64,000 nucleotides of DNA from Haloferax elongans ATCC BAA-1513. Its GTDB lineage: Archaea; Halobacteriota; Halobacteria; Halobacteriales; Haloferacaceae. The DNA lies in assembly GCF_000336755.1 (NCBI RefSeq), contig NZ_AOLK01000015.1, forward strand, positions 520,806-584,805, given 5' to 3'. The position numbers and the translations under genes were made by a program. How positions within the stretch are numbered: the stretch's first letter is position 1; the number at the start of each line of letters is the position of its first letter. Shown here one piece after another: positions 52,331-57,998 of the stretch. Below the pieces are notes generated by a model, which worked only from the letters and a program-made list of their open reading frames with translations, was not told the origin of the DNA and made no database searches.

Positions 52331-53353
52331 TCAGTCCAGTACAGCGTCGGGGTCGATGCCGAGGCCGGGCGACTCGGGCACGCTCATCTTCCCGTCACGG
52401 ACCGGCGCTGGGTCGGCCGCAACGTCCGAATCGAGGAGTGATGCAGTTGCAAGCCCGTGTGCGCGCTCGCCGGGCAGTGCGGCCGCGACGTGGAGCGCGC
52501 CGAGTCTGGCGACGACGGCGTCGATAGTCGTCGTGACGACAATATCGACACCCGCGTTGCGTGCGCGACTTGCCACGTCAAGCACGCGGTCCGGCCCGCC
52601 GAGTGCCATCGGTTTACAGACGAGGACGTCTGCGGCGTTCGACGCGAGCGCACGTACTGGCGGGACCGACGCGAGCGATTCGTCGAGCGCGATGGGTGTG
52701 TCGTGGCGGCGGCGCAAGACGGCGTGGCCAGCCAATTCCTCGGCCGGAAGCGGCTGTTCGACGTATTCGAGGTCGAGGTCAGAGATGGCTGCCAGGACTC
52801 GGTCGGCCGTCCAGCGGTCCCACGCACCGTTTGCATCGGCCCGAATCGACACGTCGTCGCCGACTGCTTCTCGGACTGCCCTGAGGCGAGTGATGTCGGC
52901 GCCGGTGTCGCGTGCGCCGACCTTCAGTTTTAGACAGTCGAATCCCGCAGAAACAGCGTTCTCGGCGGCTTCGACTGTCTGCTCGACGGGCGCGTCACCG
53001 ACTGTCGAATTCACCGGAAGCGAGGTGTGTGGGTTGCTAGCGAACGATGCCGCGAGTGGGGTGTCGTCGCGCCGGGCGCGAGCGTCTGCGAGCGCGAGCG
53101 ACACCGCGTGTCTGGCCGCCGGTGTGTCCGCGAGCGCGTCGGTCTCGATTGCGGTCTTCGGGTGGTCGACACCGTCGAGTGCAGCGCGACAGTCGTCGAG
53201 CGATTCGGTCCAGCCCGGAAGCGGCGTCGCCTCCCCGATGCCCGTGTGGCCGTCCACGTCGACCGCGACGAGGAATCCTTCGCGGCGCTCGATGTCACCG
53301 GTCGCGGTGGTGAGCGGCTGTCGCAGGTCGAGCGCGAAGTTTCGGATACGCAT
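52331..53353 (-). CDS. menC: o-Succinylbenzoate synthase
   Basis: A 340-residue enolase-superfamily enzyme dehydrating SHCHC to o-succinylbenzoate in menaquinone synthesis. The acid-base Lys is in CLKLKVGA (about residues 137-144), metal ligands in RADANGAW (about 170-177), YVEQPLP (about 196-202) and IALDES (about 220-225), and a second Lys in VLVCKPMALGG (about 243-253). The start ATG 53353 overlaps the stop of the preceding menA (TGATG). An alternative in this superfamily, a cis-muconate or dipeptide epimerase, is unlikely given the menA coupling. Confidence 0.87.
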   Translation of the reverse strand: MRIRNFALDLRQPLTTATGDIERREGFLVAVDVDGHTGIGEATPLPGWTESLDDCRAALDGVDHPKTAIETDALADTPAARHAVSLALADARARRDDTPLAASFASNPHTSLPVNSTVGDAPVEQTVEAAENAVSAGFDCLKLKVGARDTGADITRLRAVREAVGDDVSIRADANGAWDRWTADRVLAAISDLDLEYVEQPLPAEELAGHAVLRRRHDTPIALDESLASVPPVRALASNAADVLVCKPMALGGPDRVLDVASRARNAGVDIVVTTTIDAVVARLGALHVAAALPGERAHGLATASLLDSDVAADPAPVRDGKMSVPESPGLGIDPDAVLD

Positions 53354-54291
53354 CACGCGAGGGCGAGGCCGACCGAGAACAGGAGCGCGTAGAGCGCCAG
53401 CAGTTTCCCGGTGTCCTCCAATGCAGGGTTGAGCAGTTCGCCGTTCGTCTCCGTGAGGACGGTTCGGGCGATTCGGGCGGCGATAGGCATCGAGAGGAAC
53501 GGCAGCAAGACGTGCCACTCGAACCCGGAGCGCGTCCAGAGATACAGCGGAACCGCGTAGGCGACGACCAGCATCACCACGTACTCGGCGCGGGCGAAGC
53601 CGTAGCCGAACCGGACGGCGAGGGTTCGCTTGCCCGTCGTCGCGTCTTCTTCCTTGTCGCGGATGTTGTTCACGACGAGGATATTCGTCGAAATCGCCGC
53701 GATTGGGAGACTGGCGAGGACGGCGACGAGCGTCACTGTCTCCGGTGGGATACCCATCGACAGTGGGGCCGCGAGGATACTCGCTGCTTGGACGTAGTAG
53801 GTGCCGACGACGGCGACGAGGCCGAAGAAGACGAAGACGAACAGGTCGCCGAGTCCGTGGTAGCCGAGGGGGTACGGACCGCCGGTGTAGGCGATGCCTG
53901 AAGCGACCGAGAGCAGGCCGATGACGAGAATCGGCACGCCACCGACGTAGACGAGGTAGGTGCCGAGGAGGATAGCCGCGGCGAAGGTGAGATACATCGC
54001 GCGCTTGACCTCGGCGGGTGGGATGAGACCGCCAGCCGTCACGCGAGTGAAGCCTTCGCGCGCCTCGGTGTCGGCTCCCTGAATCGCGTCGTAGTAGTCG
54101 TTGGCGAAGTTGGTTCCAACCTGGATGAGAAGCGCACCGACGAGGGCCGCAAGCGCGGGCAGTGGGGCGAACAGACCGTCGTGGACCGCGAGGGCCGTGC
54201 CGACCAAAACGGGAGCGGCGGCCGCGGGGAGCGTCTGCGGCCGCGACGCCATCACCCACGCCTGCGTGCGAGAGATGTCCTGCGTGCTCAT
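53353..54291 (-). CDS. menA: 1,4-Dihydroxy-2-naphthoate polyprenyltransferase
   Basis: A 312-residue UbiA-family membrane enzyme attaching the prenyl tail to dihydroxynaphthoate. Aspartate motif NFANDYYDAIQGADTEAREG (about residues 62-81) and the second NNIRDKEEDATTGKRTLAVRFG (about 209-230), with eight or nine helices between and around. The pattern matches MenA rather than the lipid-synthesising UbiA protein elsewhere in the window. It is first in a pair with menC (TGATG overlap). Confidence 0.92.
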   Translation of the reverse strand: MSTQDISRTQAWVMASRPQTLPAAAAPVLVGTALAVHDGLFAPLPALAALVGALLIQVGTNFANDYYDAIQGADTEAREGFTRVTAGGLIPPAEVKRAMYLTFAAAILLGTYLVYVGGVPILVIGLLSVASGIAYTGGPYPLGYHGLGDLFVFVFFGLVAVVGTYYVQAASILAAPLSMGIPPETVTLVAVLASLPIAAISTNILVVNNIRDKEEDATTGKRTLAVRFGYGFARAEYVVMLVVAYAVPLYLWTRSGFEWHVLLPFLSMPIAARIARTVLTETNGELLNPALEDTGKLLALYALLFSVGLALA

Positions 54292-54367: not shown

Positions 54368-55234
54368 CTACGACGACTCGGCGTCGATGTCGAGGTGTTC
54401 AGCGAGTCGCTCGTGGGCCTGCTCGGCACGTGCTTCCATCTCTTCGTCGGAGAGGTACGTCGAGAGTCGGCGGTCGATTTCGGCCTCTCGGATTTCGGTG
54501 AGTCGCTCCTCGTCGACGTCGCAGTCGTCGGGAACGCGCTCGTCGAACCACTCGCGCCAGTCGTCGCGTTCGCCTTCGAGTTCCGCCTCGCGGCGCATCC
54601 AGTCCCAGTGCTTGGCGATTGCTTCGGGATACCCTTCGTCGCGGCGCGCGTCTGCGATGACCGTTCGGGCGACGCGCGCACCGTGGCCAGCCGAGATAAT
54701 CGCCTGCGCGTTGATGTCGGTCACGGGCGCGACGACGTACAGCCCGTCGAACGGCGTTCGGCCGTCTTGGTCCGGGTAGTCGCGGTTGAACCGCTCTTGT
54801 TCCTCGCCGTCGTGTTCGTACTGAATGAACATCGAGTCGTCGCCGAGCGGTTTGAGATACTCGCCACCGTACCGGGCGGCCGCGACGACGCGTTTCGTGG
54901 TGACTGTCCGGCCGTCCTGCGTCGTGACGGTGAACCCCGTCTCCAACTCGGAAACCTCCTCGACGAGGTCCGGGACGATTTCGCACCCGGCTTCCTCGGC
55001 GTGGTCGTGCATCAGGTCGTAGAGGGTGTCGATGTCGATGCCACCGGGGAACCCGAGGTAGTTTTCGAGGTGTGCGCACCGTCGAAGCGACGACCGGCCC
55101 CGGTCGAAGATGACCGTGTCGAGGCCGTACCGGCCGGTGAACACGCCCGCCGAACAACCTGCGGGACCGCCGCCGACGATGACGACGTCGCGGTCGAACT
55201 CGGTCTGCGATGGTTGAGAGTCGTCGCTTGACAT
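54368..55234 (-). CDS. FAD-dependent oxidoreductase (thioredoxin-reductase-like)
   Basis: A 288-residue flavoprotein with FAD motif DVVIVGGGPAGCSAGVFTGRYG (about residues 16-37) and the C-terminal VVAPVTDINAQAIISAGHGARVARTVIAD. It resembles the FAD half of thioredoxin reductases but has no CxxC active site; a single Cys lies in RRCAHLENYLGFPGG. It starts two bases after the stop of the iron-regulated binding-protein gene, so it may belong to the same transcript and act in iron or siderophore reduction. That link is inference. Confidence 0.78.
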   Translation of the reverse strand: MSSDDSQPSQTEFDRDVVIVGGGPAGCSAGVFTGRYGLDTVIFDRGRSSLRRCAHLENYLGFPGGIDIDTLYDLMHDHAEEAGCEIVPDLVEEVSELETGFTVTTQDGRTVTTKRVVAAARYGGEYLKPLGDDSMFIQYEHDGEEQERFNRDYPDQDGRTPFDGLYVVAPVTDINAQAIISAGHGARVARTVIADARRDEGYPEAIAKHWDWMRREAELEGERDDWREWFDERVPDDCDVDEERLTEIREAEIDRRLSTYLSDEEMEARAEQAHERLAEHLDIDAESS

Positions 55235-55236
55235 GG

Positions 55237-56451
55237 TCAGAAGTCGCCGTTGACGATGTCCGCGACGCGCTGGCGGTCGAACAGTGTCTCGTCGCTCGTG
55301 ACCTCACCGAAGACGTCGGGATACAGTTGCTGTGCCCCGCGCTCGGTCAGGAACAGGTTCTGAATCGGACCCTGGAAGAGGTAGCCACCACGGTAGACGC
55401 GCTCGTTCTTGACGGCAGTCAGTTCGCTCGCGACCGGGTGGGACTTCATGAATTCGAGCACGGTGTCGCGGAACTCTTCGGCCGATTTGCGCTCGTGGGC
55501 GCGCAGGAGAATCACGTCTGGGTCGACCTCCAGCATGGCCTCGTAGTCGATTTTTCCGCGGTCGGTCGTGCTCAGCCCCTCGATACCGGTACCCGAGAGC
55601 GCGTCGCTGACGCCGAGGTCGCGCCACTGTTTCTTGCTCGTCCCCTTGTCGTTGAGACGGTACGGCGAGAACTTCTCGGGTTCGTCGCTGCCGGCGTACA
55701 CCAGAAGGACGTTCGGGCGCTCGTCGGCAGACGGAAGCTTCGCCTGAATGTCGGCGATGAACTCGTCGTGGAGCGATTCGAACGCCTCGTAGCGCGCTTC
55801 TTCTTGGAAGAGTTGTGCGACCTTCTCGAAGGCCTCATAGAGGGTGTAGTACCGGTAGTCGTGCCACTCGTCTTCGCGTCGGAAGATGAGGTTGCCGAAG
55901 AACGGCGCGACGCCCTTGGTAATCTCGTCGACGTCCTTCTGCTTCCAGCCGAACCAGTTGACGAGCATCTCCGGGTCCATCAGGTGGACGTCGTTGTCCA
56001 ACTCGTAGAAAATCTCCTTGGACATGTCGCTGTCCGAGAGTTGGTTCTCCTCTATGACCGAGCGGTCCACACTCACGCCGGGGAGTTCGTCGTAGACGTA
56101 GGTGTAGTAGCGACCCGCGCCACCGATACCGGTCATCTTGTCACCGAGGCCGAGTGCGACGCCCATGTCGGCGTAGCCGCCGTCGTAGGCAATCCACGAC
56201 TCGGGGACCGAATCGAACGTGACCTCACCGACCGGTGCCATCGACACCGAGTACGACGTGTCGGGTTCAGCCGTCGTCGTGGTCGCGGTGTCCGTTTCAG
56301 CGGCAGTCTCTGCTGCGGTGGTCGTCTCGGCGGTACTGTCACCACTCGAATCAGACGTACATCCGGCGAGAAGCCCGGCACTGGCGAGTGCACCGTACTG
56401 TAGATAGTTGCGACGCGTCAGCCCGTTCCGTTCCGTGGAGTCTCCGTCCAT
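55237..56451 (-). CDS. Iron(III)/siderophore-type ABC substrate-binding lipoprotein
   Basis: A 404-residue class III periplasmic-binding protein. The N terminus GLTRRNYLQYGALASAGLLAGC is a Tat lipoprotein signal (RR at about 12-13, lipobox LAGC), followed by a Thr/Ala/Glu-rich linker and the binding domain: FDSVPESWIAYDGGYADMGVALGLGDKM and the long helix and C-terminal lobe typical of FepB/TroA-type receptors. It is preceded by two perfect TTTAGG-N4-CCTAAA sites, the pattern of metal-dependent DtxR-type repressor boxes, which supports iron as the signal. Permease and ATPase are not adjacent. Confidence 0.87.
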   Translation of the reverse strand: MDGDSTERNGLTRRNYLQYGALASAGLLAGCTSDSSGDSTAETTTAAETAAETDTATTTTAEPDTSYSVSMAPVGEVTFDSVPESWIAYDGGYADMGVALGLGDKMTGIGGAGRYYTYVYDELPGVSVDRSVIEENQLSDSDMSKEIFYELDNDVHLMDPEMLVNWFGWKQKDVDEITKGVAPFFGNLIFRREDEWHDYRYYTLYEAFEKVAQLFQEEARYEAFESLHDEFIADIQAKLPSADERPNVLLVYAGSDEPEKFSPYRLNDKGTSKKQWRDLGVSDALSGTGIEGLSTTDRGKIDYEAMLEVDPDVILLRAHERKSAEEFRDTVLEFMKSHPVASELTAVKNERVYRGGYLFQGPIQNLFLTERGAQQLYPDVFGEVTSDETLFDRQRVADIVNGDF

Positions 56452-56454
56452 ATC

Positions 56455-56470
56455 TTTAGGCTCACCTAAA
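56455..56470. promoter_or_regulatory. Iron-type operator 1 (TTTAGG-N4-CCTAAA)
   Basis: Perfect 6-base inverted repeat with a 4-base spacer, 4-19 bases before the binding-protein ATG, overlapping the transcript start expected from the TATA-like box (about 56470-56478). The sequence matches the TTAGG..CCTAA style of DtxR/IdeR/SirR family binding sites. Confidence 0.75.
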
Positions 56471-56490
56471 GGTATAAGTCGCTTCCTAAT

Positions 56491-56506
56491 TTTAGGCGTC
56501 CCTAAA
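56491..56506. promoter_or_regulatory. Iron-type operator 2 (TTTAGG-N4-CCTAAA)
   Basis: A second perfect copy of the same dyad, 36 bases from the first, on the far side of the TATA-like box. The two copies bracket the promoter, suiting cooperative repression under iron-rich conditions. Confidence 0.75.
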
Positions 56507-56531: not shown

Positions 56532-57449
56532 TCAGTAGTGCCACGGGTAGTCGCGGAACGCCGGCTGGCGTTTTTCGAGGAACGCGTCGCGGCCCTCTTG
56601 GGCTTCCTCGGTCATGTACGCGAGTCGGGTCGCTTCACCGGCGAACACTTGCTGGCCGACCATCCCGTCGTCGGTCATGTTGAACGCGTATTTGAGCATC
56701 CGCATGGCCGTCGGCGACTTCTTCGTCATCTCGTCGGCCCACTCCAGCGCGACATCCTCCAGTTCCTCGTGCGGAATCGCTTCGTTCGCCATCCCCATGT
56801 CGACGGCTTCCTCAGCGGAGTAGGTCTTGCCCATGAAGAACACCTCGCGGGCTTTCTTCTGGCCGACCTGTTTGGCGAGATACGCCGAGCCGAACCCGCC
56901 GTCGAACGAGGCCACGTCGGGGTCGGTCTGGAGGAACTTCGCGTGCTCGTCGGATGCGAGCGTCATGTCGCAGACGACGTGCAGCGAGTGGCCGCCGCCG
57001 ACGGCCCAGCCGGGAACGACGGCGACGACGGGCTTGGGCATGAATCGGATGAGTCGCTGGACTTCGAGGATGTGCAGTCGGCCAGCCTTGGCTTCGCGCA
57101 CGAGCGGGTCGTCGGACACGTCTGCCTCGTCGTCCTCGCGGTACTCGTAGCCAGAGCCACCGCGAACCGACTGGTCGCCGCCGGAACAGAACGCCCAGCC
57201 GCCGTCTTTCTCGGACGGGCCGTTGCCGGTCAGGAGGACACAGCCCACGTCGGCCCGCTTTCTGGCATCGTCGAGTGCGGCGTAGAGTTCGTCTACCGTC
57301 CCCGGACGGAAGGCGTTGCGGACCTCGGGGCGGTCGAATGCGATGCGCACCGCCGGAACGTCGACGGCGCGGTGATAGGTGATGTCGTCGAACTCGTCGG
57401 ACCCCTCGACCGGTTCCCAGCGGTCGGGATCGAATATCTCCGAGACCAT
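56532..57449 (-). CDS. menB: 1,4-Dihydroxy-2-naphthoyl-CoA synthase
   Basis: A 305-residue crotonase-fold enzyme closing the naphthoquinone ring from o-succinylbenzoyl-CoA. MenB-specific features are the loop WAFCSGGDQSVRGGSGYEYRED (about residues 84-105), MPKPVVAVVPGWAVGGGHSLHVVCD (about 137-161), and DVASFDGGFGSAYLAKQVGQKKAREVFF (about 181-208), followed by the C-terminal FREARRPxF-like EKRQPAFRDYPWHY end. ATG 57449 is chosen (MVSEIFDP); an in-frame ATG 30 codons earlier (57539) is possible but not family-like. Confidence 0.93.
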   Translation of the reverse strand: MVSEIFDPDRWEPVEGSDEFDDITYHRAVDVPAVRIAFDRPEVRNAFRPGTVDELYAALDDARKRADVGCVLLTGNGPSEKDGGWAFCSGGDQSVRGGSGYEYREDDEADVSDDPLVREAKAGRLHILEVQRLIRFMPKPVVAVVPGWAVGGGHSLHVVCDMTLASDEHAKFLQTDPDVASFDGGFGSAYLAKQVGQKKAREVFFMGKTYSAEEAVDMGMANEAIPHEELEDVALEWADEMTKKSPTAMRMLKYAFNMTDDGMVGQQVFAGEATRLAYMTEEAQEGRDAFLEKRQPAFRDYPWHY

Positions 57450-57572: not shown

Positions 57573-57998
57573 ATGTCCGCCGCTTCCGCCCTCCTCGTTC
57601 GGTTCGTCCACATCGTCGGAATGACGATTCTGTTCGGGGGTGCAATCGGCGCGTGGGTCGCAACACGGACGACCAGCGACCGCGGTATCGAACTCGCAGC
57701 GCGCTACGAGTGGATATTTTGGGGCGCGATGGGCGTCATAGTCGTCACCGGCGTCGGAAATCTCGGGGCGGTCGGGCCACCGGGACCAGAAACGACGTGG
57801 GGACTCGTCCTGACCGTCAAACTCGCTCTCGTCGTCGTGTTCGTCCTCGGGTCGTTCGTTCGGACACTCGTCGTCTTGGGATGGCTTCGCGCCGCGACCG
57901 TGACGCCCGACGCGACTTCGCTGCGCACCCTGTATGCGGCGACTGCCGGATGGCTTCTCGTGCTGGTCGCGTTCGCGGAGGTGCTCGCCCATGGCTGA
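57573..57998 (+). CDS. CopD-like membrane protein
   Basis: A 141-residue protein with four hydrophobic helices. N-terminal LLVRFVHIVGMTILFGGAIGAW and the final WLLVLVAFAEVLAHG follow the pattern of the CopD domain, a copper- or heme-related membrane family; conserved His residues are few, so function is uncertain. It overlaps the next gene by eight bases. It lies divergent from menB, within the menaquinone locus. Confidence 0.65.
   Translation: MSAASALLVRFVHIVGMTILFGGAIGAWVATRTTSDRGIELAARYEWIFWGAMGVIVVTGVGNLGAVGPPGPETTWGLVLTVKLALVVVFVLGSFVRTLVVLGWLRAATVTPDATSLRTLYAATAGWLLVLVAFAEVLAHG

Follow-up and report, generated by a model that had tools for sequence, protein, structure and literature searches.

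The locus described here lies on the minus strand of the window, by which we mean the whole 64-kb stretch of Haloferax elongans DNA that was analysed. Two genes of iron-uptake type are set between two genes of menaquinone synthesis. menB (56532..57449; NF006186, E 2.3e-173; TIGR01929 above cut-off) is the upstream neighbour of the iron promoter and menA (53353..54291, identified by profile matches) the downstream neighbour. Between them are encoded a substrate-binding lipoprotein of 404 amino acids (55237..56451) and a flavoprotein of 288 amino acids (54368..55234), all four genes on the minus strand. These coordinates confirm an earlier, sequence-only reading of the DNA, which had placed a receptor gene and an FAD oxidoreductase gene between menB and menA. 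As only 2 nt separate the lipoprotein gene from the flavoprotein gene, the two would be expected to form one transcription unit. The order menF-menD-menB-binding protein-flavoprotein-menA is kept in the window and in eight relatives (seven Haloferax and Halogeometricum limi), and these nine loci are referred to below as the men-locus copies. A gene for a CopD-like membrane protein (57573-57998), which is divergent from menB, is present in seven of the eight relatives and not in Halogeometricum limi.

The lipoprotein was assigned to the class III (FhuD/BtuF-type) substrate-binding proteins by its match to PF01497 (Peripla_BP_2), which covers residues 87-354 and scores 85.6 bits at a cut-off of 27.5 (E 4.5e-24). 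The match to PDB entry 4mlz is weak (9.8e-8). It is 96% identical to the corresponding lipoprotein of Haloferax larsenii JCM 13917, and an RR signal with an LAGC lipobox (TRRNYLQ...LLAGC) could be read by eye in its translation. The term “receptor”, under which the protein had been introduced, was wrong in its wording, since the protein is really an ABC-type extracytoplasmic substrate-binding lipoprotein of the Peripla_BP_2 family. An outer-membrane receptor was rejected because the match is to an ABC substrate-binding protein. Siderophore-type uptake, also proposed, holds at the family level (PF01497) and no further. With the class III ABC substrate-binding proteins of the FhuD/BtuF/EitA type the window protein shares PF01497 and weak NCBIfam matches to EitA, ferrichrome and heme binders. 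However, all four of its NCBIfam matches are far under the cut-offs, and its gene differs from theirs in that the immediate neighbours are neither permease nor ATPase genes. From the family and the regulon context, the ligand may be expected to be a ferric siderophore.

The flavoprotein resembles thioredoxin reductases but has neither their NADPH domain nor a CxxC redox site. An FAD motif (GGGPAG) is present at its N-terminus, thioredoxin reductases match over this N-terminal FAD part only, and the best stretches against full-length reductases lie inside profile positions 5-137. No CxxC was found in its sequence of 288 residues. The best match in both sequence and fold was TTHA0370 (PDB 2cvj), a thioredoxin-reductase-related chain of 180 amino acids with a single FAD domain. 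This chain is matched in two pieces (16-116 and 157-202), and the two FAD pieces are separated by 44 residues, too few for an NADPH domain. A structural model of the flavoprotein (pLDDT 83, from 18 sequences) likewise had the single-domain 2cvj as its best fold match, with a TM-score of 0.82 by target length and 0.52 by query length; full-length reductases were also aligned by Foldseek, mostly with an rmsd of 8-12. A genuine thioredoxin reductase was thus rejected, as the NADPH domain and CxxC are missing and the single-domain fold matches best. The haloarchaeal protein differs from TTHA0370 by an extra C-terminal helical part of approximately 90 residues and by its placement in an iron cassette. 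A second copy, 56% identical, is encoded in the same genome downstream of a binding protein whose gene has the paired dyads described below (L029). Outside the men locus, a flavoprotein match was found at 11 of the 25 loci of lipoprotein relatives, some of these matches being weak or on the other strand. The protein probably helps to release or reduce siderophore iron inside the cell.

A motif scan of the window yielded two perfect TTTAGG-N4-CCTAAA dyads, at 56455-56470 and 56491-56506, which are 36 bp apart from start to start and leave 20 bp in between. The next-best match has two mismatches. Under a first-order Markov model with the composition of the window, 0.0001 perfect dyads are expected per 64 kb. 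When up to three mismatches were allowed, there were six matches compared to 4.58 expected, and 34 of 100 shuffles reached six, which leaves the perfect pair as the one remarkable finding in the window. Read on the minus strand, the layout is dyad, ATTAGGAAGCGACTTATACC, dyad, GAT and ATG. The distal (upstream) dyad TTTAGGGACGCCTAAA extends from -55 to -40 relative to the ATG and the proximal (downstream) dyad TTTAGGTGAGCCTAAA from -19 to -4. The core promoter lies between them (56471..56490) with a BRE-like stretch and a TATA-like TTATA, both identified by eye and with an ad hoc score. The scan and this layout bear out what had been described from the letters alone, namely two perfect dyads 36 bases apart around a TATA-like box. 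In all nine men-locus copies the proximal dyad is perfect and the spacing is 36. The distal dyad, in contrast, is perfect in two copies, has one mismatch in six and two mismatches in one, and this degeneracy in seven of the nine copies counts against an explanation that involves two dyads. An extra TTAGG half-site (56485-56489) abuts the distal dyad (CCTAAAATTAGG on the minus strand) and is a candidate for a partial third site; it is also found in one of the relatives (L040) and is absent from the other seven men-locus copies.

A scan of the genome for the dyad had been suggested together with the sequence-only reading. Over the 3.95 Mb of the genome (27 contigs) and with one mismatch tolerated, it gave 29 distinct dyads, of which 19 are perfect and 10 have one mismatch, and the dyads recur at siderophore genes. 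The reversed control gave 3, and the Markov expectation for perfect dyads, again with the composition of the window, is approximately 0.008 per genome. In view of the perfect pair in the window, the genome counts against the reversed control and the Markov expectation, a chance origin of the dyads was rejected. Sixteen of these dyads are paired, and each of the eight pairs is spaced at exactly 36 bp. Peripla_BP_2 lipoprotein genes account for four paired loci (the window, L022:3959-5122, L028:3223-4467 and L029:1967-3157). Pairs are also found with a class III aminotransferase gene (L016), with an IucA/IucC gene that is followed by a lysine/ornithine monooxygenase-type gene (L022), with a DUF5059-cupredoxin lipoprotein gene (L018), and with a DUF7260 gene that is followed by a small DtxR-like gene (L024). 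Four genome pairs end 4-5 nt ahead of the next gene, and the window pair ends 3 nt ahead of the ATG. Pairs lie 44-113 nt from the start chosen for the aminotransferase, IucA/IucC and DUF7260 genes, whose start or direction is thus less certain. The 822-residue DUF5059-cupredoxin lipoprotein (L018:3298-5766), encoded right after its 36-bp pair, is a candidate iron protein.

The remaining 13 of the 29 dyads have no partner at 36 bp within one mismatch. One dyad may thus suffice, which is a further point against a two-dyad explanation. A search for degenerate partners of these single dyads at 28-44 bp gave one (C19:193750, two mismatches, at 34 bp); for the other 12, the best partner in this range has at least four mismatches. 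About 154 bp separate one perfect single dyad from an alpha/beta hydrolase gene downstream of it (L025:3231-4711), whose product could be a siderophore-opening enzyme.

The spacing was then followed through relatives of the lipoprotein, the genus and the order. For 33 relatives of the lipoprotein family, the sequence from -200 to +40 was searched, and two dyads with up to two mismatches each were accepted as a pair. With these settings, 24 of the 33 had a pair, 21 at 36 bp, one at 35 and two at 34. Of those without a pair, one had a single dyad and eight had no dyad in the stretch searched; by eye, six of these eight directly trail another binding-protein gene, and the other two matches begin inside the gene. 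At three loci (L063, L064 and L069) the pair is found ahead of the first gene of an array. In the genus, 24 perfect pairs were detected in 14 of 15 genomes, H. elongans included, and all 24 are at 36 bp with spacings of 21-51 allowed. The survey of the order covered 59 genomes, one Haloferax among them, and allowed spacings of 20-50 bp. The 64 pairs that it gave come from 29 genomes; 41 are at 36 bp, 11 at 34, four at 35, one at 37 and seven elsewhere, so that 57 of the 64 fall at 34-37, although these counts are not independent, as both the genomes and the paralogues are related by descent. The other 30 genomes had no pair under the pattern used, which counts against the explanation given below, and a stricter pattern left 18 of the 59 positive. 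Three pairs spaced at 20-21 bp, approximately two helical turns (G031:C2:671070, G041:C5:210665 and G017:C1:719666), form a class apart from those at 34-36. The idea that the 36-bp spacing reflects a local duplication, with which we started, was not upheld, because the spacing is a regulon-wide rule in the genome, the genus and the order.

To relate the pairs to the start codon, those spaced at 32-38 bp were oriented by an ORF start no more than 15 nt past the downstream 14-mer. Of 57 distinct pairs, 34 could be oriented in this way, 18 could not and five were ambiguous, which gave an oriented set rich in binding-protein genes. In 33 of the 34 oriented pairs the start codon lies 3-8 nt past the downstream 14-mer, a distance that the criterion itself bounds; the exception (L077, 12 nt) looks wrongly oriented. 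Except at L077, the TATA-like element (ad hoc score) has its start 8-11 nt ahead of the downstream 14-mer, in pairs of the 34 class as in those of the 36 class, and the difference of 2 bp between the classes falls on the upstream side. Because the distance to the TATA element is constant across both classes, the downstream operator is locked to the core promoter. This fixed operator pair at 36 or 34 bp around an archaeal core promoter, seen across the order, is what the present analysis adds to the sequence-only reading. We do not claim it as new, although no description of a 36-bp layout was found in a literature sample that consisted mostly of titles and abstract openings, was searched without spacing as a term and lay outside the primary regulon papers.

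The window dyads contain the 14-bp core TTAGGNNNNCCTAA, the proposed IdeR/DtxR consensus for a single dimer (PMC8464063), and they share this consensus with the IdeR/DtxR operators of Actinobacteria. The classical actinobacterial site of 19 bp takes up two dimers on one site (PMC8464063). The window differs in having two separate 14-bp cores, 36 bp apart, with an archaeal core promoter between them. The genome has ten matches to the DtxR DNA-binding profile PF01325, nine of them over the cut-off. The four fullest proteins include one of 138 residues, in which PF02742 is below the cut-off, while it is above the cut-off in the other three; the remaining six matches cover part of PF01325 only. 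The gene for the 138-residue protein is located about 0.9 kb from a dyad pair. Close relatives of this protein (at least 46% identity) were found in 12 of the 59 order genomes, its own included, as compared to pairs in 29, and it is thus not the sole reader of the dyads. Using it as the query, co-occurrence with dyad pairs across the 59 genomes did not single out a regulator. Another DtxR-family protein of 150 residues (L031:1504-1956) ends in a tail rich in cysteines (ECPDC...CEFLDVC) that may provide an additional site for a metal or an Fe-S cluster.

Published data on Haloferax volcanii bear on the role of iron. In this species menB is HVO_1465 and menA is HVO_1462 (PMC8305020), and HVO_1464 and HVO_1463 should thus be the two intervening genes. 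From the order of the locus tags and the synteny in other Haloferax, HVO_1464 is presumed to be the counterpart of the window lipoprotein. In a proteome study, iron starvation raises HVO_1464 8.0-fold, and a ferR signal is reported upstream of the fhu genes (PMC11349517). The presumed counterpart's response, the TTAGGNNNNCCTAA core and the recurrence at siderophore genes all support the earlier view of the dyads as DtxR-type iron boxes, and for HVO_1464 the iron reading is largely published already. Some data from the same study fit less well: under iron starvation IucC is 10.4-fold down with IucA 3.8-fold up, only five of 11 FhuD paralogues are up more than 4-fold, and the amounts of SirR and TroR are unchanged (PMC11349517). 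A result from denitrifying H. mediterranei also counts against the iron reading, as iron-uptake genes, among them one for an FAD-dependent oxidoreductase, are repressed there at the same medium iron (PMC11218638). The window genome has iron-uptake and siderophore genes and DtxR-family regulators in common with the haloarchaeal DtxR-family iron regulon (Idr, SirR and TroR of H. volcanii), and the window locus fits this known regulon. The FerR signal of the regulon was reportedly described by Leyn and Rodionov in 2015.

We are fairly confident that this promoter belongs to the DtxR-family regulon and is repressed by iron, that it serves a unit of two genes for the use of ferric siderophores, and that dimers at the dyads would clamp its core. 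When Fe2+ is sufficient, each dyad would be occupied by one predicted DtxR-family dimer. The dimer on the distal dyad would abut the BRE on its upstream side, the dimer on the proximal dyad would cover the bases that separate the TATA box from the start codon, and the two together would clamp the core promoter and shut out TBP/TFB and RNA polymerase. At low iron the dimers would leave and a near-leaderless mRNA would be made. The surface lipoprotein would then bind the loaded siderophore, and the flavoprotein would probably help to free or reduce the iron in the cell. The unit would thus be a self-contained cassette set between separately promoted men genes.

A different reading gives the two dyads opposite roles: the downstream dyad would block at plentiful iron, and at scarce iron the protein that binds there, or a different DtxR-family member, would act as an activator at the upstream dyad. 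The perfect downstream dyad next to a mostly degenerate upstream one in the men-locus copies points in this direction, as do the shift of the upstream dyad by 2 bp between the spacing classes with the downstream dyad fixed to the TATA element, and the fact that the genome encodes four or more proteins of the DtxR family. However, one consensus is common to both dyads, and an upstream site that abuts the BRE could equally be a second blocking site. We consider opposite roles unlikely, though worth keeping in mind.

It is improbable that the spacing reflects descent alone, i.e. that one ancestral promoter-gene unit was copied along with the binding-protein family and carried the 36 bp with it without any mechanism behind it. 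Many pairs do precede paralogous substrate-binding proteins. But pairs at 36 bp are also found beside the unrelated IucA/IucC, class III aminotransferase, DUF5059-cupredoxin and DUF7260 genes, the sequence between the dyads diverges while the spacing holds, and the 34 class keeps the distance between the TATA element and the downstream dyad.

Even less credit is due to a functional tie to menaquinone synthesis, in which transcripts from the iron promoter would enter menA or the flavoprotein would take electrons from menaquinol. The conserved gene order of the nine men-locus copies speaks for such a tie, and a flavoprotein without an NADPH domain would need an outside donor. In Natronorubrum texcoconense, too, an iron island lies between men genes, here menD and menB (L069:5620-13454); with three substrate-binding proteins, a flavoprotein, a small DtxR-like gene and a ferritin-like gene, it is arranged unlike the Haloferax locus. 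However, all nine men-locus copies have a conserved block, GATAGGAACTTACTCACT, approximately 24-41 bp before the ATG of menA, and menB has a conserved upstream block of its own, AAGCGAATCTTTTTGCGC, again in all nine; both may well be separate promoters. By eye, a flavoprotein match adjoins menB in only one of the 59 order genomes, that of the window, in a sample that includes 12 genomes lacking any flavoprotein match and some that are fragmented. The nearest other case has the two genes 29 kb apart (G035). The interleaving of iron and quinone genes noted earlier therefore stands as a map of the window and eight other loci, but shared control is not supported, given the menA and menB blocks and the adjacency in one genome of 59. 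We rejected the idea that the arrangement serves mainly to bring menA under iron control by read-through, because a conserved block precedes menA itself. On present evidence the menaquinone link is positional.

Some DtxR-family proteins respond to Mn2+, and the dyads might accordingly answer to manganese or another metal. We attach almost no weight to this possibility, as the dyads are placed at siderophore synthesis genes and HVO_1464 responds to iron starvation in the H. volcanii proteome study (PMC11349517).

Beyond the single locus, the iron-repressed, clamped promoter might be extended to a standard iron-gene module of haloarchaea. Two DtxR-type operators with 14-bp cores, 36 (or 34) bp apart, would clamp the BRE-TATA from both sides, with the downstream operator locked to the TATA element and the leaderless start, and the module would be portable to unrelated genes. 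The accompanying flavoprotein would be an iron-release reductase that lacks an NADPH domain and is fed by ferredoxin or menaquinol. In this full form the proposal is tentative, and we rather doubt that all of it will hold. The flavoprotein, which recurs beside binding proteins, is a candidate for siderophore iron release in haloarchaea. The spacing that is fixed across the order offers a simple, testable rule for the control of a eukaryote-like archaeal core promoter by a metal regulator of bacterial type, and the fixed-spacing pair provides a sharp pattern with which iron genes may be found in unannotated haloarchaeal genomes.
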